Positions 1,849 to 19,020 of a stretch of 23,310 bases of DNA are shown in pieces. The stretch comes from a virus. The position numbers and the translations under genes were made by a program. Numbering within the stretch: the first letter of the stretch is position 1; every line of letters starts with the position of its first letter. The DNA lies in the IMG/VR virus record IMGVR_UViG_3300042309_001150, positions 1-23,310 of that record. The stretch is one strand, 5' to 3'. The notes beneath the pieces were generated by a model. The model was given only the letters and a program-made list of their open reading frames with translations. It did no database searches and was not told the origin of the DNA.

Positions 1849-2646
1849 ATGGAAAATTACGTGAATATGTGTCTTATAACTGATTTATTATCAGTACCTT
1901 CTGAGACATTTGATGAATGGGATATGGTTTTTTTCTTGTCCAAATATTTGGACAAAATGGATTATGATTATGATGTCGATGAATATGGTAACATTTTTGT
2001 AACAAAGGGGGGTGCCTCTAAAAAACCATTAGTGTGTGCTCACATTGATACTGTACATAAAAAAACCACAATTAATATTCGTGAGGTTTGGTTACCTAGA
2101 ACTAGTTGTTATGGTCAAAAATATGACCAAAACGAGACACTACTATGTTTAAAGGGTTATGGTGATGATGGGAATGAAACCGGCTGTGGTGGTGATGATA
2201 AATGCGGAATCTACGTATGTTTAGAACTTTTAAAACGAGTTGAGAACATTAAAGTGGCGTTCTTCGTTTCTGAAGAAATTGGTTGCATTGGTTCGAGTAA
2301 ATGTGATGCTGATTTTTTCAATGATGTAGAATACGTAGTATCGTATGATGGCCCTGGAAATAGATTAGTTACTGAAATATGTAACGGAGTTAGGGTGTTT
2401 GATAGAGACAGTAAGTTTTTTGAAGTTGTTTCGAAAACATTTGACGAAATCAATTACGAACCAGTATATGGAAATCACCCATATACTGACATTTACATGA
2501 TCAAAAAACGATTTAATATTGATGGTGTTAATTTATCTTGTGGCTATTATAATATGCACTCACCTTCAGAATATGTTTGTGTCGACGACTTAAATAAAGC
2601 CATCGACACGGGATTAAATTTAATCAGAAATCTTAGCGAGAACTAA
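1849..2646 (+). CDS. M20-type zinc peptidase, PepT-like, compact
   Basis: The protein has 265 residues. The di-zinc site of the M20/M28 clan can be followed: AHIDTVH (His65, Asp67), GGDDKCG (bridging Asp near 116), SEEIG (Glu142/Glu143, catalytic base and ligand), SYDG (Asp167) and NMHSPSE (His237). The pattern is closest to tripeptidase T, a cytoplasmic aminopeptidase that releases the N-terminal residue of tripeptides. At 265 residues it is much shorter than PepT (about 400), consistent with loss or reduction of the dimerisation (lid) domain that normally splits the catalytic domain. Its 3' end overlaps the convergent ClpC-like gene by 27 bases. A role in recycling peptides from the neighbouring unfoldase, or in cleaving an amide in another small molecule, is inference. 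Confidence 0.85.
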   Translation: MENYVNMCLITDLLSVPSETFDEWDMVFFLSKYLDKMDYDYDVDEYGNIFVTKGGASKKPLVCAHIDTVHKKTTINIREVWLPRTSCYGQKYDQNETLLCLKGYGDDGNETGCGGDDKCGIYVCLELLKRVENIKVAFFVSEEIGCIGSSKCDADFFNDVEYVVSYDGPGNRLVTEICNGVRVFDRDSKFFEVVSKTFDEINYEPVYGNHPYTDIYMIKKRFNIDGVNLSCGYYNMHSPSEYVCVDDLNKAIDTGLNLIRNLSEN

Positions 2647-4759: not shown

Positions 4760-4784
4760 ATAAATGTATAAAAAAATATATATT

Positions 4785-5147
4785 ATGATTTACGGAAATT
4801 CAATCGACAGGATTTTTGATTCACTTATTCCTAAAACAGTTACTACTAGTTCTAACAACTCAACTAGATTAGTAACAACAGAAAGTGAATATAAAGTTTT
4901 AATTGCTGTTCCAGGTTTAAAAAAGGATGACGTTAAAATATCAACCAAAGAAGGTATTCTAACAATACAATACGAGCGTTCATCAGACCTAGAGTTTAGT
5001 TTTGTGGAATCATTTAAAAAATACTACACGCTCCCAGATGATTCCGACGAAAAAAATATAACTGCTAAGGTTGAAAATGGTATATTAGAAATAGTGTTAC
5101 CAAAGAGTAAGAAAAAACAAATTGAAAGATTGATTACGGTATATTAA
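4785..5147 (+). CDS. hsp20: Small heat-shock protein (Hsp20/alpha-crystallin)
   Basis: The protein has 120 residues from the start MIYGNSIDRIFDSL at 4785. An in-frame ATG at 4764 would add MYKKIYI; I prefer 4785 because 4764 sits almost on the predicted transcript start. The alpha-crystallin domain spans about residues 32-108, with the signature VPGLKKDDV and the diagnostic AKVENGILEIVLPK. The C-terminus carries an I-x-V motif (ITV at 117-119) of the kind that links dimers into oligomers. sHSPs hold unfolding proteins in a refoldable state without ATP. Hsp20 genes are known in other T4-like phages, notably cyanophages. It diverges from the ClpC-like gene across a 146-base gap, so a holdase and an unfoldase lie side by side. 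Confidence 0.9.
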   Translation: MIYGNSIDRIFDSLIPKTVTTSSNNSTRLVTTESEYKVLIAVPGLKKDDVKISTKEGILTIQYERSSDLEFSFVESFKKYYTLPDDSDEKNITAKVENGILEIVLPKSKKKQIERLITVY

Positions 5148-5197
5148 TTTTCTTTTTCGATTTTTTTTTCGTATATTATGGTTATTAAAATAAAATT

Positions 5198-5443
5198 ATG
5201 GCTATAGTATCAGAAAGTATCGAAGGTAAAATTATTAATGTCGCAATTAGTTCTACAAACTTAAAATCGGCTTCTTATAATACGGAAACGTCGGTTTTAA
5301 CTGTAAATTTCAATAATGGAGGTATTTATGAATACCAAAACGTGCCTTGGGAACTCTTTACAAAATTCCGTATGAGCGATTCTCAAGGTAAGTTTCTTAA
5401 TCAAAAGATTAAGGGTACTTATCAACATACCAAGATTAAATGA
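5198..5443 (+). CDS. KTSC-domain protein
   Basis: The protein has 81 residues, almost all of it a KTSC domain. The pattern is seen in order: INVAISSTNLKSASYN, then VLTVNFNNGGIYEYQNVP, then GKFLNQKIKGTYQHTKI. KTSC is a small beta-rich domain first described at the C-terminus of some lysyl-tRNA synthetases and is common as a stand-alone phage or bacterial protein; its activity is not established, and RNA binding has been suggested. The start follows an A-rich leader. The last codon overlaps the nucleotidyltransferase start as ATGA, which implies translational coupling and a joint role. There is no clear promoter box or terminator in the 50 bases after hsp20. Confidence 0.85.
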   Translation: MAIVSESIEGKIINVAISSTNLKSASYNTETSVLTVNFNNGGIYEYQNVPWELFTKFRMSDSQGKFLNQKIKGTYQHTKIK

Positions 5444-6243
5444 ATATAAAGACATTAATAGAACAATTAATAGAGAAGTCAAATCCGGAAACAGACGATA
5501 AAATCGTTAAATCTTTCCAGATGAAAGATGAATTATCTTCTGAAATTTTTGATAAATCTGGAGATTCTTACAAAATGAATAAGGGTGTTAGGGATAAACT
5601 AATGGATATCTCTAACGCCTTTTTAGATTTTATTGATATTGATTTTTTTGTTCATGATATTGTTTTAACCGGTTCATTAGCCAATTATAATTGGTCTGAA
5701 TTTTCAGATGTTGATTTACATATACTAATTGATTTAGATGAAGTTGATGGTGAAAAGCAGTCGGATTCACTTAAATTACACACAATAATTAAAGAATTCT
5801 TTGATTTAAAAAGACAAGCATGGAATGGTGCTCATGATATTAAAGTTAAAGGATATGATGTTGAGGTCTATGTTCAAGATATAGATGAGAAGCATTTATC
5901 AACCGGAGTTTATTCTATTTTACATAATAAATGGGTCGTAGAACCAAAAAAAATCGAATCTGCTTTAGATCTTGATGAAAAGAAAATTAAAGAAAAAGCA
6001 GAAGATTTCGTTGATTTAATTGATCAATACGAAGAAAGACATAAAAATGGTGAAGACATAACTGTTGAAATAGACAATCTAAGAAAGAAACTTAAAAAAT
6101 TCAGACAAAGTGGTCTAGATGACGGTGGGGAGTACTCCTACGAGAACCTAGTTTTCAAATTATTGAGAAGAAACGGGTATATCGGGAAGATGTTGGAACT
6201 AAAAAACTATTCAATCGACAAGAAATTATCCGTAGAGCAATAG
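5440..6243 (+). CDS. Pol-beta-type nucleotidyltransferase
   Basis: The protein has 267 residues. The minimal nucleotidyltransferase core is clear: LTGSLANYNWSEFSDVDLH gives the GS motif (78-79) and the D-x-D pair (Asp90, Asp92). A third carboxylate is likely Glu142 in YDVEVYV. The enzyme class moves a nucleoside monophosphate from an NTP to RNA, protein or a small molecule; the substrate here cannot be told. The C-terminal half (about 165-250) is helical and charged with likely coiled coil (KIKEKAEDFVDLIDQYEERHK). The start overlaps the KTSC gene by four bases (ATGA). No HEPN partner is adjacent, so a classic MNT/HEPN toxin-antitoxin pair is not supported. Confidence 0.8.
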   Translation: MNIKTLIEQLIEKSNPETDDKIVKSFQMKDELSSEIFDKSGDSYKMNKGVRDKLMDISNAFLDFIDIDFFVHDIVLTGSLANYNWSEFSDVDLHILIDLDEVDGEKQSDSLKLHTIIKEFFDLKRQAWNGAHDIKVKGYDVEVYVQDIDEKHLSTGVYSILHNKWVVEPKKIESALDLDEKKIKEKAEDFVDLIDQYEERHKNGEDITVEIDNLRKKLKKFRQSGLDDGGEYSYENLVFKLLRRNGYIGKMLELKNYSIDKKLSVEQ

Positions 6244-6260
6244 TTAACGCTATTTTTTTG
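6239..6260 (+). terminator. Weak hairpin terminator after the nucleotidyltransferase
   Basis: The stem AATAG/CTATT (6239-6243, 6250-6254) with a 6-base loop overlaps the stop codon and runs into T residues. The stem is short and AT-rich, so efficiency is doubtful. Confidence 0.4.
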
Positions 6261-6271
6261 CTTTTCTTTTG

Positions 6272-6279
6272 TATTTATA
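6272..6279 (+). promoter_or_regulatory. Candidate late-promoter octamer TATTTATA
   Basis: TATTTATA lies 34 bases before the first gene of the late block. The leader between them contains a small inverted repeat (ATAAG at 6282-6286, CTTAT at 6293-6297). The same octamer precedes the terminase, portal, protease and scaffold genes. Confidence 0.45.
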
Positions 6280-6313
6280 GGATAAGAATAACCTTATATA
6301 TAATTTAAAAAAA

Positions 6314-7573
6314 ATGGGAGATTTAAAACCTCTAGGTAGTGAAAAACTTCAAGGAGACAACAAATTAAAAAGAATACTTGAACTTACATACTACAATGAA
6401 AGTAAGAATAACGCCACAACATCAAACAAGCCAGAATTAGTAAAGGAAGGTAAGAACGGTGTTTATGGTATAGTTAAAGAAAAAGACGGATACCACGTAA
6501 AGAAGGGGTTAACCGAATCTACTCTTGATTATATCGGAGGTATGTTCATGAAAAATAAAAATAAATTTAATTCATATGCTGAAGCATTAAAGAGATTAGA
6601 ACTTATCAAATCTCAAGAATTGCAAGAAGCAACAAACTATGTTTTAAAAACAAATAAACCTAAAACTGAAGCCCCGATGCCAGCACCTTCTTTTGATAGT
6701 GCACCAGCACCGTCAGCAGGTGAACCTGCTCCTGCGCCAGCACCCGATGCTGCGCCAGCAAGAGAAGAAGAACCGGCTTTACCGCCTTCGGATTCTGAAG
6801 AAACTGGTGACGAAGCGCCAGAAGGCGATATGGGTGGTGAAGGAGGTCCTGAACACATGAAAGAGGTTCAGAGATTAAGTGGTAAACTTGGTCAAGCGAT
6901 CAGAGAAGTTCAAGACGACATGGAAAGTGACGACGTTAAATACGTTATTAACATGTTGTTGTCTGCTGTTAATTTAGAAAAATTATCTGAAGAAGATAAA
7001 GAAGAAATTGTTGACAAGTTTGAACCAGAAGAAGGTCAACCTGGTGACGAAACATCTTACGGTGACGAAGAGGAGTTTAAAGCAGAAGAAGAACCGATTC
7101 CAGCACCAGAAGGTGAAATGGACGAAACAATGAGTAGTTTAGAAGAATTAATTAATACCGATTTTGACCTAAGTGGTGACAAATCTGATATGGACGAATA
7201 TTTTTACTTCGATCCAGAAAATGAAACTGGTGATGAACCTGTTGCTCCTAGATATAAATCAGTTAGTGGTGATGATATGCCAAATAGATTAACTACAAGT
7301 TCTAAAATGAACGGTACATGGTATAACGATAAAGATGACGCGTATGGTGATTTTGATGGCGCTGATTATGATGAAGAAGATTTTGATGATCATGATTCTT
7401 ATATGAGTAAGCACGGTGATTCAAATGTGGATTTGAGATATAAACCTGACTTTGAAAGACATAAACCTATTAAAGTTAGAACACTAAAGAAAAAGGACGA
7501 TCTTGACATTACTCCAGAATTAACTGAAATTAATGAAGCGATCAAAACAACATTAAGCAAATACTTTGAATAA
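6314..7573 (+). CDS. Acidic, Pro/Ala-rich probable virion-associated protein
   Basis: The protein has 419 residues. The N-terminal part (about 1-115) looks folded and basic to neutral, with a beta-rich module NGVYGIVKEKDGYHVKKG at about 49-66. A Pro/Ala-rich linker follows (about 120-155, repeated PAPAP). The rest is very acidic, with a helical island (about 180-245, EVQRLSGKLGQAIREVQDD). The C-terminus turns basic (RTLKKKDDLDI). It heads the plus-strand late block behind a TATTTATA box and is followed after two bases by the next gene. I do not recognise the family. Composition and position suggest a capsid-interior, scaffold-like or assembly protein, but that is inference. Confidence 0.7.
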   Translation: MGDLKPLGSEKLQGDNKLKRILELTYYNESKNNATTSNKPELVKEGKNGVYGIVKEKDGYHVKKGLTESTLDYIGGMFMKNKNKFNSYAEALKRLELIKSQELQEATNYVLKTNKPKTEAPMPAPSFDSAPAPSAGEPAPAPAPDAAPAREEEPALPPSDSEETGDEAPEGDMGGEGGPEHMKEVQRLSGKLGQAIREVQDDMESDDVKYVINMLLSAVNLEKLSEEDKEEIVDKFEPEEGQPGDETSYGDEEEFKAEEEPIPAPEGEMDETMSSLEELINTDFDLSGDKSDMDEYFYFDPENETGDEPVAPRYKSVSGDDMPNRLTTSSKMNGTWYNDKDDAYGDFDGADYDEEDFDDHDSYMSKHGDSNVDLRYKPDFERHKPIKVRTLKKKDDLDITPELTEINEAIKTTLSKYFE

Positions 7574-7575
7574 TA

Positions 7576-7977
7576 ATGTATCTACTTTACATCAATGAAC
7601 TAGGTGAAGATTATAAAGGCCAGAGACAATATGAGTTTATTTTTGGCGAAGATCCTAGTGTTTTGATGGAAGAGTGGTTTCATATCCCATCATCAGGACG
7701 GGCGATACCACCAGAATTAGAATTTATAGATCTAGTTGGTTTATTAAAAAATTCCGACTTAAAACTAGATTTAGTTCAAAATTCTGACTATTTTGGTGTC
7801 ATCGATGCTGTTGATGGGATTATTGCGTTAGGTTGGGAATCATTTGATCTAAATGCAGAAGAAAGACCTGTAAGGGTCTGTTTTCATTTTGGTGAAGAGT
7901 TAGACAGTGTTACTCAGAAGTTAGCATCAAAAGGGTTAAGATTAATAAATGAAGAAATTAAATACAAATTGAAATAA
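7576..7977 (+). CDS. Uncharacterised late protein
   Basis: The protein has 133 residues, is mildly acidic, and has alternating hydrophobic strands (MYLLYINELG, YFGVIDAVDGIIALGW, RPVRVCFHFG) suggesting a compact mixed alpha/beta fold. There is no signal peptide, membrane segment or catalytic motif I recognise. It starts two bases after the preceding stop and ends one base before the next start, so it is part of one tight operon upstream of terminase. The leader is AATAATA, with no Shine-Dalgarno sequence. Confidence 0.75.
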   Translation: MYLLYINELGEDYKGQRQYEFIFGEDPSVLMEEWFHIPSSGRAIPPELEFIDLVGLLKNSDLKLDLVQNSDYFGVIDAVDGIIALGWESFDLNAEERPVRVCFHFGEELDSVTQKLASKGLRLINEEIKYKLK

Positions 7978-7978
7978 A

Positions 7979-8734
7979 ATGAAAAGAATTGATCTAGTTC
8001 AACAATTAGTTAAGGAAGGTATGTCTGAAAAAACATTAGTTAATTTCAGCGATAAACAATTAAAAATGCTTTCTGAAAGATTGCAAGTAAAAGCGAGTAA
8101 TTTAAAAGCAAAACCAGAACTACAAGCGATGGCTAAAGATCCTGCGATCGATATGGAAGTGATGGAAAAGAAAGAAGGATTAAAAGGAAATCAAAAGAAG
8201 TTAGATAAAAATCATAACGGCAAAATTGATAGTCAGGATTTTAAAATATTAAACGGAAAGAAGAAAACAAAAGTTACAGATAAGGACGAAAAAAAATCTA
8301 CGGTAAAGAAAAAAACTAAGGTTGACCAAAAAGAAAAAATGGATTTGAATTTAAAAAATTTAAACGAATGGGTTGACACATTAGTTGAAAAGTCGTATCA
8401 TCCTTTAACAACTAAAGGTGATATGATGGAAGCGATTATGAGTAAAATTAAAACAGCGGCAATACCAATGCCTGCTTCTAAACCAAAAAAAGGACACAAT
8501 GGTGTTGCTGAGTTTATGGAATATAATAATCCAGAACCAGAAAAACAAGAACCAGATATAGAAACATTACCTGCGGAGCCAGATACTAAACCTAGAGAAA
8601 GGCCAAAGCATCCAGGACAAAGACCAAACGATAACCCTGATCCGGCGCCAAAAGCAAAGGCGAAACAAAAGATTTCACCTAAAGAAGCAAAATCTAAAGT
8701 TATAGGATCGATACATAAATTACTTTCTAAATAA
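7979..8734 (+). CDS. Lys-rich protein with an EF-hand loop
   Basis: The protein has 251 residues. The N-terminus (VQQLVKEGMSEKTLVNFSDKQLKMLSERL) is helical. At residues 76-87 lies a complete 12-residue calcium-binding loop, DKNHNGKIDSQD, with acidic or Asn ligands at positions 1, 3, 5, 9 and 12, Gly at 6 and Ile at 8. Only one loop is present, as in dockerin-like or single EF-hand repeats. A Lys-rich stretch follows (about 93-120), then a helical part and a Pro-rich disordered region (about 180-225). Calcium binding is predicted from the motif. It is embedded between two acidic late proteins with one-base or zero-base spacing, so a structural partner role is plausible, not shown. Confidence 0.75.
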   Translation: MKRIDLVQQLVKEGMSEKTLVNFSDKQLKMLSERLQVKASNLKAKPELQAMAKDPAIDMEVMEKKEGLKGNQKKLDKNHNGKIDSQDFKILNGKKKTKVTDKDEKKSTVKKKTKVDQKEKMDLNLKNLNEWVDTLVEKSYHPLTTKGDMMEAIMSKIKTAAIPMPASKPKKGHNGVAEFMEYNNPEPEKQEPDIETLPAEPDTKPRERPKHPGQRPNDNPDPAPKAKAKQKISPKEAKSKVIGSIHKLLSK

Positions 8735-10072
8735 ATGAAGAAAAATAAATTAAGGGAGGATATCGATTACGGTAACTACCCAGAAAGAATGGGTAGGTCT
8801 ACCGAAAGAGCGGCCGCTGATCCAAATAGTTTATACGCCACAAATCCAGCAATGAAAAGAGGTGCTGCTGATGTTGAAAAACTTATCGGGAATAGATTTA
8901 AAAAAGTGGTTGATTATTTAAGACAAGTTACAAATATTCAAGATTTAAGTTCTAGACAAGTTCAAGGAATGTTATTTAATGAAATGATGTCGAATCTTGT
9001 TCCTAGTGTAATTCAAATCGAAGATAACCATAAAGAAGAGATTCAACAATTGGCTATCGAAGCATCATTAGATGAAACCGAGGTTCCTGCTAATTGGTAT
9101 GAAATTGAAGCCCAATTAATCAGAGCCCCGATTGACCCTAATGAGTTTAGAATGCAACCAGACGATGATGAGGAAGATCAAGATCAAGAAGACGATCAAG
9201 AAGATGATGATAATAATGAACAACCAGAAATACCTTCTTTTGATATTGAAGATCTAACACCTGATGAACAATTAGAGTTAGAAAAACACAAAAGAAATAT
9301 TATAAATGCATTAATACAAGGTGCAGCAAAAAAAGGTCATCACATTTATGATAAACCATGGGTTAAAGAAAGATTAGATCAGATAGATCCAAATTTACAT
9401 GCAATGTATAAGAAGATCATGGCTATAACTGATTTCAATTATTTTACTATGGATGACGCCATTGACGCAATGAGTCAATCTGGATCAGGTATTGCCGGTA
9501 TGAATAAATTAAGTAATCCAGACGAAGATGGTGGTGATGAAGGTGGTGGTGATGAAGGTGGTGGTGGAGAACCGAAACCAGATACTAAAATAACTGCTTT
9601 AGGTTTGTTTTTCCCAATACTTTGTCACGAAATTGTTAAAGGAATTAAAGAAGCATCAGGAAGACATGGTTTACCAAATGATCCTGAAATGTCACAAAAG
9701 ATCAGAGGAAAAACAGATGTTTTAAGTAATGAACCAATGCAATTGAGAGTTGGTCCTGAATTATTTGAAAAATTAAGATTTTTATTACCAGACGAAATGT
9801 TTGACGAATCAAATAAAGGTCTAACTCCTTGGTTTGAAATGGTTTTATACCAAATACCTGCTCAAGAGTTTTTAACAATTATTGGTAACATAGTTACAGA
9901 TGATGAAAGAAAAAATAATTTAGTTAAAACTAGATTCAGAGAGGTGATGAGAGAAGCAATGAATCTTAAATCAGAATACGACGATTACAAAGAAGATAAC
10001 AATATCCCACCAGACAGCGATGATAAATTAGGCGACTGGCTTAATAGTATGGGTATTGATTTACCTAGTTAA
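8735..10072 (+). CDS. Uncharacterised late protein just upstream of terminase
   Basis: The protein has 445 residues, and the start directly abuts the previous stop (TAAATG). The N-terminal third is folded-looking (helices around KKVVDYLRQVTNIQDLSSRQVQG). Two acidic low-complexity linkers follow, at about 143-162 (Asp/Glu/Gln) and 265-280 (a DGGDE/GGGDE/GGGGE repeat). The C-terminal domain (about 285-445) contains FFPILCHEIVKGIKEASG and WFEMVLYQIPAQEF. It ends with a strong terminator before the terminase gene, so it closes the first late operon. The position could suggest a small-terminase or head-completion function, but no helix-turn-helix is evident and I do not recognise the family. Confidence 0.75.
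   Translation: MKKNKLREDIDYGNYPERMGRSTERAAADPNSLYATNPAMKRGAADVEKLIGNRFKKVVDYLRQVTNIQDLSSRQVQGMLFNEMMSNLVPSVIQIEDNHKEEIQQLAIEASLDETEVPANWYEIEAQLIRAPIDPNEFRMQPDDDEEDQDQEDDQEDDDNNEQPEIPSFDIEDLTPDEQLELEKHKRNIINALIQGAAKKGHHIYDKPWVKERLDQIDPNLHAMYKKIMAITDFNYFTMDDAIDAMSQSGSGIAGMNKLSNPDEDGGDEGGGDEGGGGEPKPDTKITALGLFFPILCHEIVKGIKEASGRHGLPNDPEMSQKIRGKTDVLSNEPMQLRVGPELFEKLRFLLPDEMFDESNKGLTPWFEMVLYQIPAQEFLTIIGNIVTDDERKNNLVKTRFREVMREAMNLKSEYDDYKEDNNIPPDSDDKLGDWLNSMGIDLPS
9527..9571 (+). repeat. 15-bp tandem repeat encoding a GGGDE linker
   Basis: Three consecutive 15-bp units of the type GGTGGTGGTGATGAA, with changes in the first and last, encode DGGDE-GGGDE-GGGGE. This is a flexible acidic linker and a likely site of length variation by slippage. 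Confidence 0.8.
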
Positions 10073-10078
10073 AATAAC

Positions 10079-10106
10079 AAAAGTGGTCAATTTAGACCAC
10101 TTTTTT
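10079..10106 (+). terminator. Strong Rho-independent terminator upstream of terminase
   Basis: A 10-bp perfect stem AAAAGTGGTC/GACCACTTTT with a 6-base loop AATTTA, ending in six T. It separates the first late operon from the terminase unit, whose TATTTATA box begins three bases later. Confidence 0.9.
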
Positions 10107-10108
10107 CA

Positions 10109-10116
10109 TATTTATA
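10109..10116 (+). promoter_or_regulatory. Candidate late-promoter octamer TATTTATA before terminase
   Basis: The octamer lies between a strong terminator and the terminase ATG at 10120, with only three bases to the ATG. A new transcript must arise here if the terminator works, and it would be leaderless or nearly so. Confidence 0.55.
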
Positions 10117-10119
10117 TAT

Positions 10120-11895
10120 ATGAGTCAAAAAATTGAACAATTAAAAGAATATGCTCGTATTATAAAAGATACGCCATATGCTCTTAGGACATATCTACAA
10201 ACGTTTGATAATACCCAAAAGAAATTTGTACCATTAGAATTGTTTCCTGATCAAATACAACTGTTAAAAGATTACGAAACGTTTAATGAAAATATTACTA
10301 GAAAATATAGACAAGCGGGTGTCACCACAGTAACTGCAGCATGGTTGTCAAAAAAATTACAATTAGCAAAACCAGATAACCCTGAAAGGGTTCTGATCAT
10401 TGCAAACAAACGTGATACCGCAATTGAGATGGCTAACAAAGTTAGACATTTCTTAGAGCAGTGGCCGGAATGGTTAAATGTTGGGTTTTCTCCCGATAAA
10501 AACTCCGAGAGTAGATTTAGGTTAAATAATGGTTCTGAAGTAAAAGCGGTTGCAACATCTGCGGATGCTCTTCGTGGTTTTACACCTACAGTACTTGTGT
10601 TTGATGAGGCCGCGTACATTGAAGCAGGCGAAGATTTTTGGGCTGCGTCAATGGCGTCATTGTCAACGGGTGGTAAGATTATATTAATCTCAACACCAAA
10701 TGGTTATGACCCAATTTATTGGGGTGTTTATGACCAAGCAATAAGGGGTATTAATGATTTTCATATTACCGATTTAAGATGGTTTAAAGATCCGCGTTAT
10801 ACAAAAGATTTAGTTTGGATAAAAGTTCCAGATATTGTTCATTACATGTTGAATAGAGAACAATATAATGACGATGATGTAGTATTAAAAGAATTTGATC
10901 TTTTAAAATATCAAGAATTAATGGACCAAGGTTATCAACCATATTCAAGTTGGTTTGAATCTATGTCTAAAAAATTCAAATATGATAAAAGAAAGATTGC
11001 TCAGGAATTGGAATGTGATTTCTTAGGTTCTGGTGATAGTGTTATTCCTTCTGAAACAATGGAAAGAATTGCTAAAACAATGATCAAACAACCTAAAGAA
11101 AAGTACATGCAAGGTACTTTGTGGTTATGGAAAGAGCCAGAACAAGGTCATAGATATATAATGGGTGTCGACGTTAGTAGAGGGGATAGTGAGGATTTCT
11201 CATCAATAAACATTATTGATTTTGATGCAAGAGAACAGGTTATGGAATACATCGGTAAAATACCTCCTGATGATTTAGCGGCTATAGCGTATAAATGGGG
11301 AGTATTATATGACGCATTTATTGTTGTGGATATAACTGGTGGTATGGGGGTTGCGACATCCAGAAAACTACAAGAAATGAATTATAAAAATTTATTCATT
11401 GACGGTATTAACACAAAAAATATCTGGGAGTACAATGCTAAAGCAATGGAAAAAATCCCTGGAATTAATTTTAACAACAAAAGAACACAAATAGTAGCAT
11501 GTTTTGAAGAACAATTAAGACATGATTTTATAGTTAGATCCAATAGATTATTAAATGAATTGAATACGTTCGTTTATCTAAATGGCAAACCAAATCATAT
11601 GAAAGGCGCTCATGATGACGCTATTATGAGTATGGCTATTGCACTATATGCTGGGGATATCTCTTTTACACAACTAACAAGAAATGAAAATCAAGCAAAA
11701 GCGATGGTTGACTCTTGGATGTTAGCGGAAAGAACATACGACTCAGGTAAAGGTTTTTATTCATACGGTACATCGTTTGACGGCGTTGGATCAATGCAAA
11801 TGGATCAATCGCAGTACGGTAATCAGCAAACGCAACCTTCAAAACAACTTTATCAAGAATATGGGTGGTTATTTGGTGGCAAAAAGGGTTCATAA
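10120..11895 (+). CDS. terL: Terminase large subunit (T4 gp17-like)
   Basis: The protein has 591 residues. ATPase domain: a deviant Walker A RQAGVTT (64-70), in which the usual lysine before Thr is Val and Arg64 probably substitutes, as in many phage terminases; Walker B VLVFDEAA (158-165, catalytic Glu163); coupling motif STPNG (191-195). Nuclease domain with the RNase H-like fold: GVDVSRGD (Asp351), IVVDITGG (Asp404) and AHDDAI (Asp499/500). It docks on the portal, pumps DNA into the prohead and cuts headfuls. In T4, gp18 and gp19 (sheath, tube) lie between gp17 and gp20; here the portal follows directly after 48 bases. Identification is firm. Confidence 0.97.
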   Translation: MSQKIEQLKEYARIIKDTPYALRTYLQTFDNTQKKFVPLELFPDQIQLLKDYETFNENITRKYRQAGVTTVTAAWLSKKLQLAKPDNPERVLIIANKRDTAIEMANKVRHFLEQWPEWLNVGFSPDKNSESRFRLNNGSEVKAVATSADALRGFTPTVLVFDEAAYIEAGEDFWAASMASLSTGGKIILISTPNGYDPIYWGVYDQAIRGINDFHITDLRWFKDPRYTKDLVWIKVPDIVHYMLNREQYNDDDVVLKEFDLLKYQELMDQGYQPYSSWFESMSKKFKYDKRKIAQELECDFLGSGDSVIPSETMERIAKTMIKQPKEKYMQGTLWLWKEPEQGHRYIMGVDVSRGDSEDFSSINIIDFDAREQVMEYIGKIPPDDLAAIAYKWGVLYDAFIVVDITGGMGVATSRKLQEMNYKNLFIDGINTKNIWEYNAKAMEKIPGINFNNKRTQIVACFEEQLRHDFIVRSNRLLNELNTFVYLNGKPNHMKGAHDDAIMSMAIALYAGDISFTQLTRNENQAKAMVDSWMLAERTYDSGKGFYSYGTSFDGVGSMQMDQSQYGNQQTQPSKQLYQEYGWLFGGKKGS

Positions 11896-11930
11896 TCCAG
11901 TAAAATTTGTTTACATTAACAAAGGAAAAG

Positions 11931-11938
11931 TATTTATA
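11931..11938 (+). promoter_or_regulatory. Candidate late-promoter octamer TATTTATA before the portal
   Basis: TATTTATA is five bases before the portal ATG at 11944, again implying a leaderless or very short leader. A purine stretch AAAGGAAAAG (11921-11930) lies just upstream of the octamer, too far from the ATG to act as a ribosome binding site. Confidence 0.5.
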
Positions 11939-11943
11939 TCAAT

Positions 11944-13770
11944 ATGGCAGATCAAAATTTAACAATATTTCAAAGGTTAACGAAAATATTCGGGTTTCAA
12001 GGTCAAGTACCTCAGCCACCGTCCTTTAATTTTTCAAAAGAAGAACTTCTTAGGACTGACGATCCTGCTGTTTTTGAAAAAGAAAAATTACAACGTCAGC
12101 AAAGCCAATATCTTTTTGATAAATGGACTAAATTAGATAATTCATTATACAATCAATCGGTTTATTATGAACCTAATAGAATTGCTGCATACTATGACTT
12201 TGAATCAATGGAATTCACACCAGAGGTTTCAGCAGCATTAGACATTTATGCTGAAGAGTCAACAACAGTTTCAGAAAAGGGACATATTTTAGAAATTTAC
12301 TCTGAATCAAAAAGGGTAAAAAATATATTAATTGACTTATTTGAAAATAAATTAGACATTAACACAAACTTACAAATGTGGGCAAGAAACATGTGTAAGT
12401 ATGGTGATAACTTCTTGTACTTAAAAGTTGATCCAGAAGATGGTAAAGGTGTTGTTGGATGTCAACAATTACCAAATATTGAAATTGAAAGATTAGAAGG
12501 AGCGTTAAACGCTAGTCCACAACAAAGGGACGCAAAATTACCCGCTAAAGAACTTAGGTTTAGATGGAAGAATAAAGATTTAGAATTCCAAGCGTGGGAG
12601 ATTGCTCACTTTAGAATTATGGGTGACGATAGAAAATTACCTTATGGTACTTCTATGTTAGATAAGATCAGAAGAATTTGGAAACAACTTTTACTTGCTG
12701 AAGATGCTATGTTGATATACAGAACATCGAGAGCACCGGAAAGACGTGTGTTCAAAGTATTCGTAGGTAACATGGATGATAAAGATATCGAACCGTATGT
12801 ACAACGTATTGCGAACAAGTTCAAAAGAGATCAAACAGTGGATGCTAGAAATGGTCAGGTAGATATGCGTTATAATCAAATGGCTGTTGACCAAGATTAT
12901 TTCATTCCTGTTCGTGATCCAGCAACCCCAAACCCAATTGAAACATTGGCTGGGGCACAAAACTTAGGTGAGATTGCGGATATTGAATATATTCAGAAAA
13001 AATTATTAGCGGCACTTCGTATACCTAAGGCATTCTTAGGTTTTGAAGAAGTTGTTGGAGATGGTAAGAATTTAGCATTAATGGATATCCGTTTTGCTAG
13101 AACAATCAATAGAATTCAAAAATCATTAATACAAGAACTTAATAAAATTGCATTGATCCACCTTTACATGTTGGATCTAGAGGATGAGTTAGATAATTTC
13201 TCATTAGGTTTAAGTAACCCTTCTGCACAATCAGATTTATTAAAAATTGAAAGTTGGAAAGAAAAAGTTACACTATACAAGGATGCAACGTCAGATCAAT
13301 CACAGGTTGGTATCTTACCAGTGTCACACACTTGGGCTAAGAAGAATATCCTTGGATTTAGCGATAACGAGGTTTTACTTGATTTACAACAACAACGTCT
13401 TGAAAGAGCGATGGGATTTGAATTAACAAACACTCAAAATATTATTAAACGTTCAGGTATATTTGATGAGGTTGACTCTAAGTATGGTATACCAGAAGAA
13501 GAAAGAGAAAAGGCACAAGAAGCCGCTGATGCTGGTGGAGAAGATGGTGGAGGTATGGGTATGCCACCATTAGGCGGAGGCGGAGGTTCTTCAGCCCCAG
13601 AACCAGACGCAGGCGGAAGCGAACCATTGAGTGAGGGCAAAAAAGATAAAAAAAGAAAATTACTTTCATTATTGGAAAGTGAAGATAATCATGATTTATT
13701 CAACATGGAAAAGGCACAAAAGAATATTTATGAAATAGAAAATAAACTAAATAATTTACTAAACGATTAA
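11944..13770 (+). CDS. Portal protein (T4 gp20-like)
   Basis: The protein has 608 residues. The gp20 family is recognised from the N-terminal YEPNRIAAYYDFESMEF and SAALDIYAEEST, the central DRKLPYGTSMLDKIRRIWKQ and RAPERRVFKV, and the crown region RFARTINRIQKSLIQELNK. Twelve copies form the ring at the packaging vertex, through which DNA enters and to which the neck attaches. The C-terminal tail (about 530-608) is unusual: a Gly/Pro-rich linker with GGGGG, a basic KKDKKRK patch and a final helix. It may project into the prohead and interact with the acidic scaffold (inference). The next gene begins two bases after the stop. Confidence 0.95.
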   Translation: MADQNLTIFQRLTKIFGFQGQVPQPPSFNFSKEELLRTDDPAVFEKEKLQRQQSQYLFDKWTKLDNSLYNQSVYYEPNRIAAYYDFESMEFTPEVSAALDIYAEESTTVSEKGHILEIYSESKRVKNILIDLFENKLDINTNLQMWARNMCKYGDNFLYLKVDPEDGKGVVGCQQLPNIEIERLEGALNASPQQRDAKLPAKELRFRWKNKDLEFQAWEIAHFRIMGDDRKLPYGTSMLDKIRRIWKQLLLAEDAMLIYRTSRAPERRVFKVFVGNMDDKDIEPYVQRIANKFKRDQTVDARNGQVDMRYNQMAVDQDYFIPVRDPATPNPIETLAGAQNLGEIADIEYIQKKLLAALRIPKAFLGFEEVVGDGKNLALMDIRFARTINRIQKSLIQELNKIALIHLYMLDLEDELDNFSLGLSNPSAQSDLLKIESWKEKVTLYKDATSDQSQVGILPVSHTWAKKNILGFSDNEVLLDLQQQRLERAMGFELTNTQNIIKRSGIFDEVDSKYGIPEEEREKAQEAADAGGEDGGGMGMPPLGGGGGSSAPEPDAGGSEPLSEGKKDKKRKLLSLLESEDNHDLFNMEKAQKNIYEIENKLNNLLND

Positions 13771-13772
13771 AA

Positions 13773-14528
13773 ATGAACAATAAAGTAGGGGTTTTAAAAA
13801 CTAAAATACTAAAGAAACTTACAGAATCTTATACATCTGAGAATAAATCAGATATGAAGAATATTCTTAAACTTATAAAAGAAAACAAAGATTTTAAAGA
13901 AATGTATTTGTTTTATGAAGAAATTGAAAATAAACATATTTCAGATAAAGAAACAGCAAAATTATATGTTGAGGGTTTGAGCGCAATGTTAAATCATCAA
14001 ATGTTAAAAGGAAGTAAAAATAGTTTAGACGTGTTTTGTGAATCATTAAATAAAACAATTGGTGATGTTTCAATAGAACAAAATGATTTATACGAATCTT
14101 TAGATACTCTAACCGAGAACGATACTCTGTCAAATATAGAAAAGAAAGTCATAGCAAAAAGGAAATTGGTTGAACATTTGACAACCAAAAAGGAAATATT
14201 GGAATCTAAGGAATCTGTTTTGGTCCCTAATGAAAATTTATTAAATGCAATTTTAACAAATAACTTTAATACATTATATTCAAACACACTGTCTGAATCT
14301 GAAAAAAATGAATTAAAAAATATTCTAGCAATACCTTACAGTGAAATTGAAGAGAAAACAGTAGAATTAAAAGAATCTATTGTAAACCAAGTTTCCACAC
14401 TTATAAATGAATCAAGCGATAATGATTTATTAAGTAAATTAAACACAGTAAAAGATGAGGTAAATCAGATGAAACCATCTAGGTACAACTACTTCAGATT
14501 AAACGAATTAAAAAATGGACTTAATTAA
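13773..14528 (+). CDS. Helical protein in the position of T4 gp67/gp68
   Basis: The protein has 251 residues, almost wholly predicted helical, rich in Lys, Glu, Asn and Leu, with no Trp and one Cys. There are no motifs I recognise. It begins two bases after the portal stop, so it is cotranscribed and probably coupled. In T4 the genes after the portal are 67 and 68, small prohead-core proteins; the position and composition fit a prohead-core component, but sequence homology cannot be claimed. Its last codons lie in a perfect 24-bp palindrome shared with the convergent bS21 gene, so both proteins end in Asn-Gly-Leu-Asn. Confidence 0.75.
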   Translation: MNNKVGVLKTKILKKLTESYTSENKSDMKNILKLIKENKDFKEMYLFYEEIENKHISDKETAKLYVEGLSAMLNHQMLKGSKNSLDVFCESLNKTIGDVSIEQNDLYESLDTLTENDTLSNIEKKVIAKRKLVEHLTTKKEILESKESVLVPNENLLNAILTNNFNTLYSNTLSESEKNELKNILAIPYSEIEEKTVELKESIVNQVSTLINESSDNDLLSKLNTVKDEVNQMKPSRYNYFRLNELKNGLN

Positions 14529-14536
14529 GTCCATTT
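14513..14536. terminator. Bidirectional terminator: perfect 24-bp palindrome over both stop codons
   Basis: The sequence reads identically on both strands (half-site AAATGGACTTAA, centre TTAATTAA at 14521-14528). It is followed by CTTTTTT on the plus strand and by TTTTT on the minus strand. It contains the stops of the upstream plus gene (14526-14528) and of bS21 (14521-14523). Confidence 0.85.
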
Positions 14537-14712
14537 CTTTTTTGTTCAATATAGATCGCTTTTAATTTTTCGTCCCTTTTCTTTACTGAAGGTTTAATAT
14601 AAACCTGTCTATCCCTCAACTGCTGGATTTGTTTGGTTTTTTGAACTTTGTTTTTATAAGTTCTTAATGCGGTTTCTATACTTTTTTCTTTTGATAGATC
14701 AATAATAATCAT
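14521..14712 (-). CDS. rpsU: Phage-encoded ribosomal protein bS21
   Basis: The protein has 63 residues, the normal length of bS21. The family pattern is clear: MIIIDLSKEKSIETALRTYK, then QLRDRQVYIKPSVKKR and KAIYIEQKR, with the YIKPSVKKR segment and the basic helices typical of Bacteroidetes bS21. bS21 sits on the 30S platform next to the 16S 3' end. In Flavobacterium, bS21, bS18 and bS6 sequester the anti-Shine-Dalgarno sequence; as I recall, Tyr54 is a contact residue, and Tyr is at position 54 here. bS21 is among the commonest ribosomal proteins in phages. This is the only minus-strand gene in the 5198-19405 block. Upstream is AAAGAG nine bases before the ATG, at most a weak Shine-Dalgarno sequence. 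Confidence 0.88.
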   Translation of the reverse strand: MIIIDLSKEKSIETALRTYKNKVQKTKQIQQLRDRQVYIKPSVKKRDEKLKAIYIEQKRNGLN

Positions 14713-14818
14713 AAAGGATTTCTCTTTATTTTAAATATATACAAAATTTTGGAATTTTAAAAAATTTTCTTTATTTTTATACTTAACACCATTAAAATAT
14801 AATAATATGAAGATATAA

Positions 14819-15247
14819 ATGAAATTTGGTAAATTTATTCACTTGGGTGAATATGAAGAAATTAAAATTGGTTACGGTACCGTAGATTTTAGAAACTTAA
14901 AAACCGTGTATGTAAAATTAAACTCCTGGGTTATGCCAACAGATGAAATGGCTGATTTCGATAAAACAATTTTAAGGAGTAGAAAGAAAATTAAAGATAC
15001 AATAAGAGAACATAACTTAAATAATTTATTTAAAAAAGAAAGCATTGTTGATCTAGATATAAGAACTAAGGGAATAAAGTTAGATAAAAAATCCTTTATG
15101 AACCTAGAAGTAACACTATTCGCTGAAAATCAATTTGATATAAAAAGTAAGGAAATTAAAAATACACTTAAAAATTTGATTGAATGTATCGTTGATAACT
15201 GCTTAATTGATAGATCCTTATTTAATTTCAGTAAAACTAAGTTTTAA
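14819..15247 (+). CDS. Uncharacterised protein between portal and protease genes
   Basis: The protein has 142 residues, is basic, and has an N-terminal beta-rich stretch (KFGKFIHLGEYEEIKIGYGTVDF) and C-terminal helices (SKEIKNTLKNLIECIVDNC). There is no signal peptide or known motif. It lies divergently from the bS21 gene across 106 bases, and 37 bases separate its stop from the protease start. TTTTTATA (14774-14781), one base off the late octamer, may be its promoter. A three-codon frame (ATG at 14807, stop at 14816-14818) ends directly before its ATG. The location in a T4-like head operon suggests a prohead or head-assembly role (inference). Confidence 0.75.
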   Translation: MKFGKFIHLGEYEEIKIGYGTVDFRNLKTVYVKLNSWVMPTDEMADFDKTILRSRKKIKDTIREHNLNNLFKKESIVDLDIRTKGIKLDKKSFMNLEVTLFAENQFDIKSKEIKNTLKNLIECIVDNCLIDRSLFNFSKTKF

Positions 15248-15261
15248 ACGTTAATGCGTAA

Positions 15262-15269
15262 TATTTATA
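15262..15269 (+). promoter_or_regulatory. Candidate late-promoter octamer TATTTATA before the protease
   Basis: TATTTATA is 15 bases before the protease ATG at 15285, giving a predicted leader of about 10 bases (GTAAAAACTATAA region). Confidence 0.5.
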
Positions 15270-15284
15270 ATGTAAAAACTATAA

Positions 15285-15971
15285 ATGCGCATTTTAGGAC
15301 CAAAAGAAGTTGGAAAGGGGATTTTAATAGAATACGACGCAGGTCATATATCACCTAGCGAAAACAAACATATTTTAAAAGAGATGGAGAATAAGGATAC
15401 CGATCAGGACTTTATTCTCTATGCTGTTTTACAAAAATTCGATACACCGAACAAAAACGGTAGAATCTATCCTGAAAGAATTCTTAAAAGAGAAAATGAC
15501 AAGTACCAACAAGTCATGAAAAATGGTTCAGCATTAAATGAACTAAATCACCCGTCATCATCACTTATCGATTTAGATAGAGTTTCCCATTCAATTCTTG
15601 AAACATGGTGGGAGGGTAGAATGTTAATGGGTAAAATTAAATTATTTACTTCTCCGGGTTGGAGAAAAATGGGTATAGTATCTACAAAGGGCGATCAAGC
15701 CGCTATGCTTCTTTTAAACGGCGCTACTTTAGGTATATCATCTAGAGGTGTTGGATCATTAAAATCAGAGAAGGGACAGAATGTTGTCCAAGACGACTTT
15801 GAATTAGTTTGTTTTGATTTAGTGTCGTCACCATCTACGCCAGGCGCGTATATTTTCCAAGATCTATCAGACAGAGATAAATTTCAAGAGTCAGTTCAAG
15901 AAGAAAAACCAATTGAAAATAACAGGGTTTTAAAATTAATGGGAAAACTAGATTCTTTCCTTACCAAATAA
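15285..15971 (+). CDS. Prohead core protease (T4 gp21-like)
   Basis: The protein has 228 residues, close to T4 gp21 (212). Conserved features of this serine protease family (herpesvirus-assemblin-like fold) are the N-terminal LQKFDTPNKNGRIYPERIL, NELNHP with the likely catalytic His89, LLLNGATLGISSRGVG with the likely catalytic Ser152 or Ser153, and FELVCFDLVSSPSTPGAYI. It is packaged in the prohead, activates after assembly, digests the scaffold and trims the capsid protein before DNA packaging. It stands directly upstream of the scaffold and capsid genes as in T4, and is closed by its own terminator. Confidence 0.93.
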   Translation: MRILGPKEVGKGILIEYDAGHISPSENKHILKEMENKDTDQDFILYAVLQKFDTPNKNGRIYPERILKRENDKYQQVMKNGSALNELNHPSSSLIDLDRVSHSILETWWEGRMLMGKIKLFTSPGWRKMGIVSTKGDQAAMLLLNGATLGISSRGVGSLKSEKGQNVVQDDFELVCFDLVSSPSTPGAYIFQDLSDRDKFQESVQEEKPIENNRVLKLMGKLDSFLTK

Positions 15972-15980
15972 TGACTTTAT

Positions 15981-16013
15981 TTAGGTTTTCAATATAAAAA
16001 CCTAACTTTTTTT
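15981..16013 (+). terminator. Rho-independent terminator after the protease
   Basis: A 9-bp stem TTAGGTTTT/AAAACCTAA (15981-15989, 15997-16005) with a 7-base loop, followed by C and seven T. It separates the protease gene from the highly expressed scaffold-capsid unit. Confidence 0.85.
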
Positions 16014-16024
16014 GAAAATCACAC

Positions 16025-16032
16025 TATTTATA
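16025..16032 (+). promoter_or_regulatory. Candidate late-promoter octamer TATTTATA before scaffold-capsid
   Basis: TATTTATA sits 12 bases after a terminator's T-run and 20 bases before the scaffold ATG at 16053. It is the only candidate promoter I see for the scaffold and capsid genes. Confidence 0.55.
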
Positions 16033-16052
16033 TATTAAATCGATCATAACAA

Positions 16053-17267
16053 ATGACAGAAAAATCCATTTTAGAACAAGCGTTACTTCAAATCAACACA
16101 CTTGAAGAAGCAGTAAAGCAAAATGCAAAAGGTATCCTTGGATCAGTAATGAAACAAGAACTAAACGATTTGCTTAAAGAATCTATGGAAGAAGAGGATG
16201 AAGTTCCAGTAGACGGAACTGAACCTGAAGAAAAAGAAGAGGATATGCCAAATCCAGATGAACAAACAGAACAACCAGAAGACGAAGTTGGTGACGAAAC
16301 CGATGACGAAGATTCTGAAGATGTTTCTGATGAAGATTCTGAAGAAGGAAATGAAGAAGGTGATGACTTACCATCATTAGAGGACGAACCAACCAAAGGT
16401 ATCGATTCAGAAGATTCAGCAGAAGATGATTTATCATCATTTGGTGATGCTGGTATGGATGACATGGGCGGTGAAGACGAAGATGTTTTAGATATGACTG
16501 GCGCTCCACATGATGAAGTTGTTAAGGTATTTAAAGCAATGAAAGACGAAGACGGTATCATCGTTAAAAAAGATGGTGAGAACGTTGAGTTTAAAGATGG
16601 TGATGAAGAGTACATCATTAAATTAAACGAAGAAGAGGAGTTTACTCCTGACTCGGAAGAAGAATCTGACGAATTTTCTCAAGAAGAAATGTCTGAAGAT
16701 TGGAACGAAGAAGAGGAAAACGTTTATGAAATTGAGTTAGGTCAAGATGATGAAGACGAACCAGTTAAAAAAGTTGAGGCAACGGAAGCAAAAAGAACTA
16801 AATCTAATCCACACGGTAACAAAAACGGTATGAATAGATCTGGTTTACCTAGTAAGAAAACTTACAAGGCGGGTTCTGGTATCAACGAAGAAGTTCAAAC
16901 TTTGAAAAAACAAAATGCTGAATACAAAAAGGCGTTAGTTATGTTCAAGGATAAACTTAACGAGGTTGCAGTATTCAACGCAAATCTTGCATATGCTACA
17001 AGATTATTTACAGAACATTCAACTACAAAAACTGAAAAAATGGAAATTTTAAAAAGATTTGATACCATTTCTTCAATAACTGAATCAAAAAATCTTTACA
17101 CTGCAATTAAAACTGAATTAGGTTCTAAAAAGACAGTAACTGAATCAGTTGCAGAAAAAATAACCTCATCTCCTTCAACATCTTCTAGCGAAGTGCTTGC
17201 TGAATCAAAAGTTTATGAAGCACCTCAGTTTGCAAGAATGAAAGATTTAATGAGAAAAATAAAATAA
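16053..17267 (+). CDS. Prohead scaffold protein (T4 gp22-like by position)
   Basis: The protein has 404 residues. It begins with a helix (ILEQALLQINTLEEAVKQNAKG), then a very acidic Asp/Glu/Ser region (about 46-160), a folded-looking insert (about 150-190, DEVVKVFKAMKDEDGIIVKKDG), another acidic run, a basic linker (about 245-272), a long coiled coil (about 277-310, EEVQTLKKQNAEYKKALVMF) and a helical C-terminus (FARMKDLMRKIK). Acidity, coiled coil and position between the protease and capsid genes match a core scaffold that is degraded by the protease during maturation. Direct similarity to gp22 is not visible, so the call rests on architecture and synteny. It is cotranscribed with the capsid gene, 25 bases downstream. 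Confidence 0.85.
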   Translation: MTEKSILEQALLQINTLEEAVKQNAKGILGSVMKQELNDLLKESMEEEDEVPVDGTEPEEKEEDMPNPDEQTEQPEDEVGDETDDEDSEDVSDEDSEEGNEEGDDLPSLEDEPTKGIDSEDSAEDDLSSFGDAGMDDMGGEDEDVLDMTGAPHDEVVKVFKAMKDEDGIIVKKDGENVEFKDGDEEYIIKLNEEEEFTPDSEEESDEFSQEEMSEDWNEEEENVYEIELGQDDEDEPVKKVEATEAKRTKSNPHGNKNGMNRSGLPSKKTYKAGSGINEEVQTLKKQNAEYKKALVMFKDKLNEVAVFNANLAYATRLFTEHSTTKTEKMEILKRFDTISSITESKNLYTAIKTELGSKKTVTESVAEKITSSPSTSSSEVLAESKVYEAPQFARMKDLMRKIK

Positions 17268-17292
17268 AAATTAAAAAACAAATATTTTAAAA

Positions 17293-19020
17293 ATGGGAGC
17301 ATTATTAGAATCAGGTATGGTTGGTAACATCGGTCTTAAGCACCTTCGTGTTATCAAAGAAGATACCATCAAAAAATGGGATGACTTAGGTTTCTTAGAT
17401 AACCTTGAAGGTCACCAAAAAGATAATATCGCGCAATTGTATGAAAACCAAGCGTCATATTTGATCAACGAAGCAGCGGTAGCGGATTCTTCAGGTTCTT
17501 TCGAAACTGTAGTTTTCCCTATTATCCGTCGTGTATTCTCTAAATTACTTGCTAACGATATCGTATCTGTGCAAGCAATGAACTTACCTATCGGTAAATT
17601 ATTCTTCTTCATTCCTAAAATTCAGGAAAGAGGCGGAACTAACGATAGCCAACACCACCACCCTTATGGATGGCCTAACACAAACGGTAACCCAACAACT
17701 GGTTATACTGGTGTAAACCTTTACGATCGTTTCTACGAAGCAGATGATTCTTTATCAAGTGGTCTTTTTGATTACTCTAAAGGTCAATTCTCTGGAGTAA
17801 CTTTAGCAGGTGCATCTTATGTAACTTTCTCTAACGGTGCTGTAACTGAAGTTGCAAACTCTGCAATGACAGGTTTAACTAAGAGTGATGTTGTTATCAA
17901 ATTTAGTGGTTTCACTAAAGATGGTCAAGGTAAATTAATCGGACCTAACGGTAACGTAATGGATACTGAAGAGTTCTTAGCATCTTCTACAGTAACTTTC
18001 TCTGGTTCTTCTAGATCATTCAATGTTGTAACTCAACAATATGGTAAAGGAATCGTTGCTTACGGTGCTAAATCACCTGCTGCTGGTTATCCTTCTGGAA
18101 ACTATAACGATATCTGTGATGAGAATGGTGTAATTTACATTAAAGTAGATTTACAAGATTATTCTTCAACTTCAGGTTTCTCTAGTCCAGTATTGGCTGC
18201 TGACGCGTTAGCATCTGCTTTCGTATTAAACTACAGAGTTTACGATACTTTAGAATTCGAAGATGAAATCGGTGAGGTTTCTTTCGACCTTTCTTCTGTA
18301 ACAGTTTCTGTAACTGAAAGAAAATTAAGAGCATCTTGGTCTCCAGAACTTGCTCAAGACGTTAGTGCATTCCACAACATCGATGCTGAAGCGGAATTAA
18401 CTGCTTTATTATCTGAGCAAATCGCTGCTGAGGTTGACCGTGAAATTTTACGTGACCTTAGAAGAGGTGCTGCATGGTCTCTTAAATGGGATTATAACGA
18501 GTGGAAATACGGTGGTGCGTCTGGTGCAACTTTACAAGGTTACACTCAAAAAGATTGGAACCAAACATTGATCACTAAGATCAACCAATTATCTGCTCAA
18601 ATCCATAAAACAACCTTGAGAGGTGGTGCAAACTGGATCGTTGTATCTTCAGAAGTTTCTGCAGTATTCGATGATTTAGAGTATTTCCACGTTTCAAATG
18701 CAGGTGCTGAACAAGATCAGTACAACATGGGTATTGAGAAAGTAGGTACTTTAGCAGGTAGATACCAAGTTTACCGCGATCCTTACTTCCCACCAAACAA
18801 GATCTTAATTGGTCATAAAGGTAAATCATTATTAGACGCAGGTTATATCTACGCTCCATATGTGCCTTTACAATTAACTCCAACAATGTACAATCCTTTC
18901 ACTATGACACCTATCAAAGGTATCATGACTAGATACGCTAAGAAAATGGTTAACAACCGTTACTATGGTACTATCGACGTAAAAGGTATCCAAACATTTG
19001 ATCTTGGATCTTTAAGATAA
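17293..19020 (+). CDS. Major capsid protein (T4 gp23-like)
   Basis: The protein has 575 residues, against about 521 in T4 gp23. The HK97-fold gp23 family is recognised by FPIIRRVFSKLLANDIVSVQAMNLPIGKLFF, by ERKLRASWSPELAQDV with DAEAELTALLSEQIAAEVDREIL, and by AGYIYAPYVPLQLTP. The N-terminus (to about Glu60) probably forms the delta domain removed by the prohead protease: INE-AAVADS resembles the gp21 cleavage pattern, and T4 gp23 is cut after Glu65. An extra Gly/Ser/Thr-rich region at about 120-310 may form an insertion domain on the capsid surface. Codon choice shifts to C-ending codons (AAC, TTC, ATC), as expected of very high expression. A strong terminator follows. Confidence 0.95.
   Translation: MGALLESGMVGNIGLKHLRVIKEDTIKKWDDLGFLDNLEGHQKDNIAQLYENQASYLINEAAVADSSGSFETVVFPIIRRVFSKLLANDIVSVQAMNLPIGKLFFFIPKIQERGGTNDSQHHHPYGWPNTNGNPTTGYTGVNLYDRFYEADDSLSSGLFDYSKGQFSGVTLAGASYVTFSNGAVTEVANSAMTGLTKSDVVIKFSGFTKDGQGKLIGPNGNVMDTEEFLASSTVTFSGSSRSFNVVTQQYGKGIVAYGAKSPAAGYPSGNYNDICDENGVIYIKVDLQDYSSTSGFSSPVLAADALASAFVLNYRVYDTLEFEDEIGEVSFDLSSVTVSVTERKLRASWSPELAQDVSAFHNIDAEAELTALLSEQIAAEVDREILRDLRRGAAWSLKWDYNEWKYGGASGATLQGYTQKDWNQTLITKINQLSAQIHKTTLRGGANWIVVSSEVSAVFDDLEYFHVSNAGAEQDQYNMGIEKVGTLAGRYQVYRDPYFPPNKILIGHKGKSLLDAGYIYAPYVPLQLTPTMYNPFTMTPIKGIMTRYAKKMVNNRYYGTIDVKGIQTFDLGSLR

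Follow-up and report, generated by a model that had tools for sequence, protein, structure and literature searches.

A reverse-strand bS21 gene in a phage head-gene cluster retains Tyr54 and lacks the extended Shine–Dalgarno sequence of Flavobacterium-group rpsU

A virus record of 23,310 bases from IMG/VR, belonging to a virus of Bacteroidota-type bacteria, analysed over its whole length and called the window below, encodes a homologue of ribosomal protein bS21 within its head genes. The locus is real, well conserved and previously described. New are its wider reach and the contrast between its leader, which has no extended Shine–Dalgarno (SD) sequence, and the leaders of host rpsU genes. No other ribosomal protein is as common in phages as bS21, whose benefit to the phage is unproven. 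In Flavobacterium, as in few other bacteria, a specialised-ribosome circuit has been demonstrated; it runs through bS21, and the absence of an SD from the phage gene makes the known takeover idea testable in a laboratory host.

A phage bS21 on the reverse strand, with Tyr54 and a proposed substitution into ribosomes, has already been published (Chen et al., 2022; PMC9723584). These authors described 47 phage genomes, with Bacteroidetes predicted as hosts, in which bS21 is reversed within the region encoding the large terminase (TerL), portal, protease and major capsid protein (MCP). All of their phage bS21s have Tyr54 or another aromatic residue. The gene was highly transcribed late, its transcripts being abundant alongside those of structural genes, and phage bS21 was proposed to substitute into host ribosomes at the late stage and to select phage transcripts. 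The first-pass annotation of the window had suggested that host bS21 could give way to the phage copy, to the advantage of phage mRNAs. This is not a new proposal, as Chen et al. made it for the equivalent gene at the equivalent position. Their paper does not discuss the SD-less leader, and the leader contrast between phage and host is the part that goes beyond it. For the host protein, McNutt et al. (2023; PMC9976891) reported a stacking contact between Tyr54 and A1534 in the 16S 3′ tail, by which the tail is redirected to the bS18/bS6 pocket; this bears out the first-pass description of Tyr54 as a contact residue. Autoregulation of rpsU was demonstrated experimentally in Flavobacterium johnsoniae, where the gene is translated by bS21-lacking ribosomes via an extended SD; rpsU pairing energies below −13 kcal/mol are typical of Bacteroidota (PMC9976891).

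The bS21 gene is the sole minus-strand gene from position 4764 to 19020 (about 14.3 kb) according to ORF layout and family hits, and it sits between the portal and prohead protease genes of a T4-like head cluster (Table 1). Both points had been claimed before (a single minus-strand gene in about 14 kb of plus-strand genes, in the portal–protease interval) and are confirmed, with Portal_T4, Peptidase_S77 and Gp23 matches flanking bS21. The gene is opposite in strand to TerL, portal, protease and MCP and lies between two hypothetical genes, as in the locus of Chen et al. The description 'antisense in the head operon' stands as far as the opposite strand is concerned. bS21 is not antisense to any gene body: it overlaps its convergent neighbour by 8 nt (ttaattaa), at the stop codons only. 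The word 'operon' is doubtful, as Chen et al. reported, on the basis of RNA reads, that no single operon covers the region (PMC9723584). The window shares with their clades a–e, from huge Bacteroidetes phages, the reverse-strand bS21 in the TerL/portal/protease/MCP block, the two hypothetical flanks, Tyr54, and a diverged N-terminal half that includes positions 21, 23 and 28; the comparison of this 23-kb fragment with them covers gene layout and bS21 residues. For the 142-aa divergent partner, AlphaFold2 predicts a strand-rich alpha/beta fold (pLDDT 87). A fold search with this protein gave weak matches only (best E = 0.016), and profile comparison against the PDB found no match and no solved relative.

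Table 1. The bS21 gene of the window and its surroundings.
Feature	Position	Strand	Remarks
Large terminase (TerL)	10120..11895	+	Terminase_6N E = 1e-9; phrog_2 E = 1e-36
T4-like portal protein	11944..13770	+	Portal_T4 E = 1e-71
Convergent neighbour, 251 aa	13773..14528	+	3′ end overlaps bS21 stop, 8 nt
Phage rpsU (bS21)	14521..14712	−	63 aa, ATG start, Tyr54; Pfam PF01165
Divergent regulatory gap, 106 bp, with the SD-less bS21 leader inside	14713..14818		Conserved blocks and length in relatives
Divergent partner, 142 aa	14819..15247	+	Probably bS21_CN (fam498) of Chen et al., by position
Prohead protease	15285..15971	+	Peptidase_S77 E = 5e-21; phrog_207 E = 6e-42
Major capsid protein (MCP)	17293..19020	+	Gp23 E = 2e-73

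The protein product, MIIIDLSKEKSIETALRTYKNKVQKTKQIQQLRDRQVYIKPSVKKRDEKLKAIYIEQKRNGLN, matches the Ribosomal_S21 profile (E = 1.1e-12; 47.9 bits versus a curated cut-off of 27) and PHROG 21469, 'ribosomal protein S21'. It further matches F. johnsoniae bS21 (PDB 7jil chain z; E = 4e-10) over residues 1–62. The alignment has no gaps, and residue 54, a Tyr, is in register with Tyr54 of the F. johnsoniae protein; the two proteins also share the KPSV core, and their identity is 41–46%. An aromatic residue at position 54 is a mark of Bacteroidia-type bS21, the type linked to sequestration of the anti-SD. The AlphaFold2 model (pLDDT 87) consists of helices 12–36 and 41–61, the two-helix fold of bS21. 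A Foldseek search with the model returned zero PDB matches, the fold being too small for such a search to be informative. The earlier identification of a 63-residue bS21 homologue with a Tyr at position 54 withstood both the profile search and the structure prediction.

Close loci were defined as the best 80 of 137 IMG/VR stretches encoding a bS21 relative. Tyr54 is kept in all 80 of these phage relatives (best 80 of 137) and likewise in 80 of 80 Flavobacterium-group hosts. Among the close loci (best 80 of 137) there are 39 distinct relatives of the phage bS21, 70–98% identical. By the Nei–Gojobori method, dS and dN against two of the nearest relatives are 0.31 and 0.007 (L004) and 1.08 and 0.058 (L006). 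The resulting dN/dS of about 0.02–0.05 against the nearest relatives indicates strong purifying selection. Whether a phage copy would preserve or alter the masking of the anti-SD had been left open; invariant Tyr54 in the close relatives (80/80, best 80 of 137) and purifying selection favour preservation. A scan of genome contigs with the phage bS21 found no bacterial relative, and the best bacterial matches listed from 395 class-level genomes are 37–52% identical to it.

The gene order is equally constant. The close loci (best 80 of 137) have in common a divergent gene of 141–142 aa, a gap, bS21 and a convergent gene of about 250 aa, and the same layout was found in every one reaching far enough, with a stop overlap of usually 8 nt. 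The divergent partner was matched in 76 of the 80 (best 80 of 137), always divergent, the four misses being contig ends; the convergent gene was matched in all 80 (best 80 of 137), always convergent. The gap between bS21 and partner measures 98–106 bp in relatives and contains conserved blocks, TATATTTG towards bS21 in most relatives and CACCATAA towards the partner. Searches with other bS21 proteins yielded 63 further viral loci, termed distant. Both neighbours are present in unchanged orientation in 47 of these and the divergent partner alone in six more (partner total 53/63), with partner identities of 36–41% in the examples listed. Chen et al. reported that the arrangement is no longer seen below about 70% TerL identity (PMC9723584). 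Ten distant records that were tested keep the locus at a TerL identity to the window of 59–64% (MCP of the distant records tested, 69–76%), and the locus therefore extends past this limit. Judged by these identities, its wider reach is new relative to Chen et al.

The leader of the phage gene sets it apart from host rpsU. As SD score we used the best uninterrupted pairing of the 22–24 nt before the start with 16S positions 1532–1544 (UCACCUCCUUUCU), computed with Turner stacking energies and without bulges; a pairing below −13 kcal/mol was taken as an extended SD. All 80 of 80 Flavobacterium-group host rpsU leaders have an extended SD (−20.8 to −23.8 kcal/mol), as has the autoregulated gene of F. 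johnsoniae. The bS21 leader of the window reaches only −5.5 kcal/mol and thus has none. An extended SD was also sought in 40 distinct close phage leaders and found in none of them (median −1.75 kcal/mol; strongest −8.8 kcal/mol, in L004). Distant loci that share this gene context provided 21 distinct leaders, of which 20 are without a strong SD. The exception, L309, lies on a 166-kb contig with the gene order of the window and has the strong SD AAAGGAGG (−14.55 kcal/mol). The same SD with the same energy precedes bS21 of the 735-kb phage LR756501 (L245), where it is stronger than that of its other ORFs. The LR756501 protein is 52% identical to that of the window and retains Tyr54, but its gene has another context, with neighbours on the same strand. 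These two SDs, one of them in the gene context of the window, show that the character changed within phages or was regained. L309 and L245 offer a natural comparison for the feedback model set out below.

An SD-less leader, as far as these comparisons go, is no proof that an SD was lost in the phage. In a wider sample of bacterial rpsU genes of the Tyr54 or His54 type, 9 of 14 have a strong SD and five have none; among 16 chosen because they resemble the phage protein, three have the strong SD and 13 lack it. As some Tyr54-type bacteria lack a strong rpsU SD, the SD-less state of the phage gene could come from the donor. The bS21 tree places the phage proteins (27 rows from close and 13 from other phages; support 99/95) within a part where most bacterial rows have a strong SD, a placement which, on 64 columns with long branches, is a lean and not a result.

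The best explanation of these data, and on balance a probable one, is that phage bS21 joins the host 30S subunit, keeps the anti-SD masked, escapes the feedback on host rpsU and could shut off the latter. Incorporation into 30S and an effect on translation are inferred. Late in infection, phage bS21 would take the place of host bS21 in 30S subunits. A precedent for such entry is bS21 of pelagiphage HTVC008M, which is incorporated into E. coli 70S ribosomes (PMC6375957). Its Tyr54 would keep the anti-SD tail tucked away, and the ribosomes would stay competent for the SD-less phage mRNAs. Lacking an SD, the phage bS21 message would itself be translatable by bS21-replete ribosomes. Host rpsU, through its extended SD, depends on bS21-lacking ribosomes; by filling the vacant subunits, phage bS21 would thus switch off host rpsU and convert the ribosome pool to its own form. 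Following a suggestion of Chen et al., the many substitutions fixed in the N-terminal half may confer an extra preference for certain mRNAs. A stronger version, which we put forward only tentatively, holds that the lineage shed a host-type autoregulatory SD and kept Tyr54. The gene would then be free of feedback and would repress rpsU by filling bS21-lacking ribosomes, the pool being converted without degradation of host bS21. McNutt et al. suggested that autoregulation restoring host bS21 is a possible counter-defence (PMC9976891). If the phage gene escapes and represses the rpsU loop, this counter-defence would be blunted. A search of one literature collection found no paper on a phage bS21 that escapes and represses the host rpsU loop.

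The leader can also be read more simply. Phage bS21 may top up or replace the host protein once its synthesis breaks down late in infection, with mRNA choice and host feedback unaffected, and the SD would be absent merely because the phage uses SD-less leaders for all its genes. The latter agrees with the first-pass statement that the phage mRNAs lack SD sequences, which proved correct: the best of 22 other window genes checked (portal) scores −7.8 kcal/mol, within the range of control stretches. The genes of relatives are mostly SD-less too, with 3 of 74 below −9 kcal/mol, and Tyr54 and the C-terminal core are retained. The N-terminal half, however, is odd for a stand-in. Phage and Flavobacterium bS21 have no common residue at 19 positions, of which 15 are within residues 5–30, although divergence of the donor could explain part of this. 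Chen et al. named Arg21, Phe23, Asp25 and Thr28 as divergent positions (PMC9723584). Positions 21, 23 and 28 of the window protein are Asn, Val and Gln where Flavobacterium has Arg, Phe and Thr, and the Flavobacterium Asp aligns in our numbering at position 24, which is Gln in the phage. We regard simple replacement as rather unlikely.

The same N-terminal unlikeness would suit a protein that, once in ribosomes, lowers the translation of host messages as an inhibitor and not as a selector for phage messages. E. coli ribosomes with bS21 of pelagiphage HTVC008M kept about 5% of their activity in vitro (Mizuno et al., 2019; PMC6375957), which could reflect inhibition rather than selective translation. 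That protein is a phage bS21 homologue like ours, likened here by description, but was acquired, according to Mizuno et al., from an alphaproteobacterial host, and the test in E. coli spans distant species. Moreover, neither host mRNAs nor those for the phage head have an SD, so that a general inhibitor made together with the structural proteins would hurt the phage; we consider inhibition improbable. Least probable of all, and hardly to be expected given that residues common to ribosomal bS21 including Tyr54 are retained, is a non-ribosomal role in which bS21 and its divergent partner are packaged or act in head assembly or RNA binding, despite their constant pairing with each other and with head genes in 80 close loci (best 80 of 137) and up to 53 distant contigs and despite virion packaging having also been raised by Chen et al. 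(PMC9723584).

The head genes of the window have a candidate late promoter. The sequence TATTTATA occurs seven times in the window, five times within 50 nt upstream of a gene: at 6272, 10109, 11931, 15262 and 16025 (+) it lies 8–42 nt ahead of a 419-aa gene, TerL, portal, protease and a 404-aa gene, respectively. In relatives it was found upstream of 39 of 86 ORFs (2.2 expected), and it may be the late promoter of the phage group. A shared late promoter of this kind for bS21 and its partner is not supported: their upstream regions in the window score 1.8 and 1.2, and 95% of random stretches score below 2.8. Many relatives have a conserved TATATTTG box ahead of bS21 that looks like a Bacteroidota −7 element, but the window copy is degenerate (TATATTTA), and the window shows no excess of TAnnTTTG (34 occurrences against 37 expected). 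Chen et al. found matching RNA levels for bS21 and its opposite-strand neighbour (PMC9723584). The lack of a good TATTTATA copy at bS21 and partner, together with their shared conserved gap of about 100 bp, is compatible with these matching levels and with the non-operon transcription reported there.

Three further genes lie upstream of the head cluster. A ClpA/ClpB-type AAA+ protein is encoded at 2620–4638 (−; phrog_4871 ATP-dependent protease, E = 1e-235); that phages of this kind might produce a protease directed at host bS21 was a speculation of McNutt et al. (PMC9976891). An Hsp20 small heat-shock protein, which Chen et al. repeatedly found near phage bS21, is encoded at 4764–5147 (+; Pfam E = 1e-17). 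Hsp20 and Clp-type genes are also found nearby in the published relatives. An M42/M20-type peptidase is encoded at 1849–2646 (+; phrog_4191, E = 1e-43), with a Bacteroidota-like TATATTTG box ahead of it at 1821.
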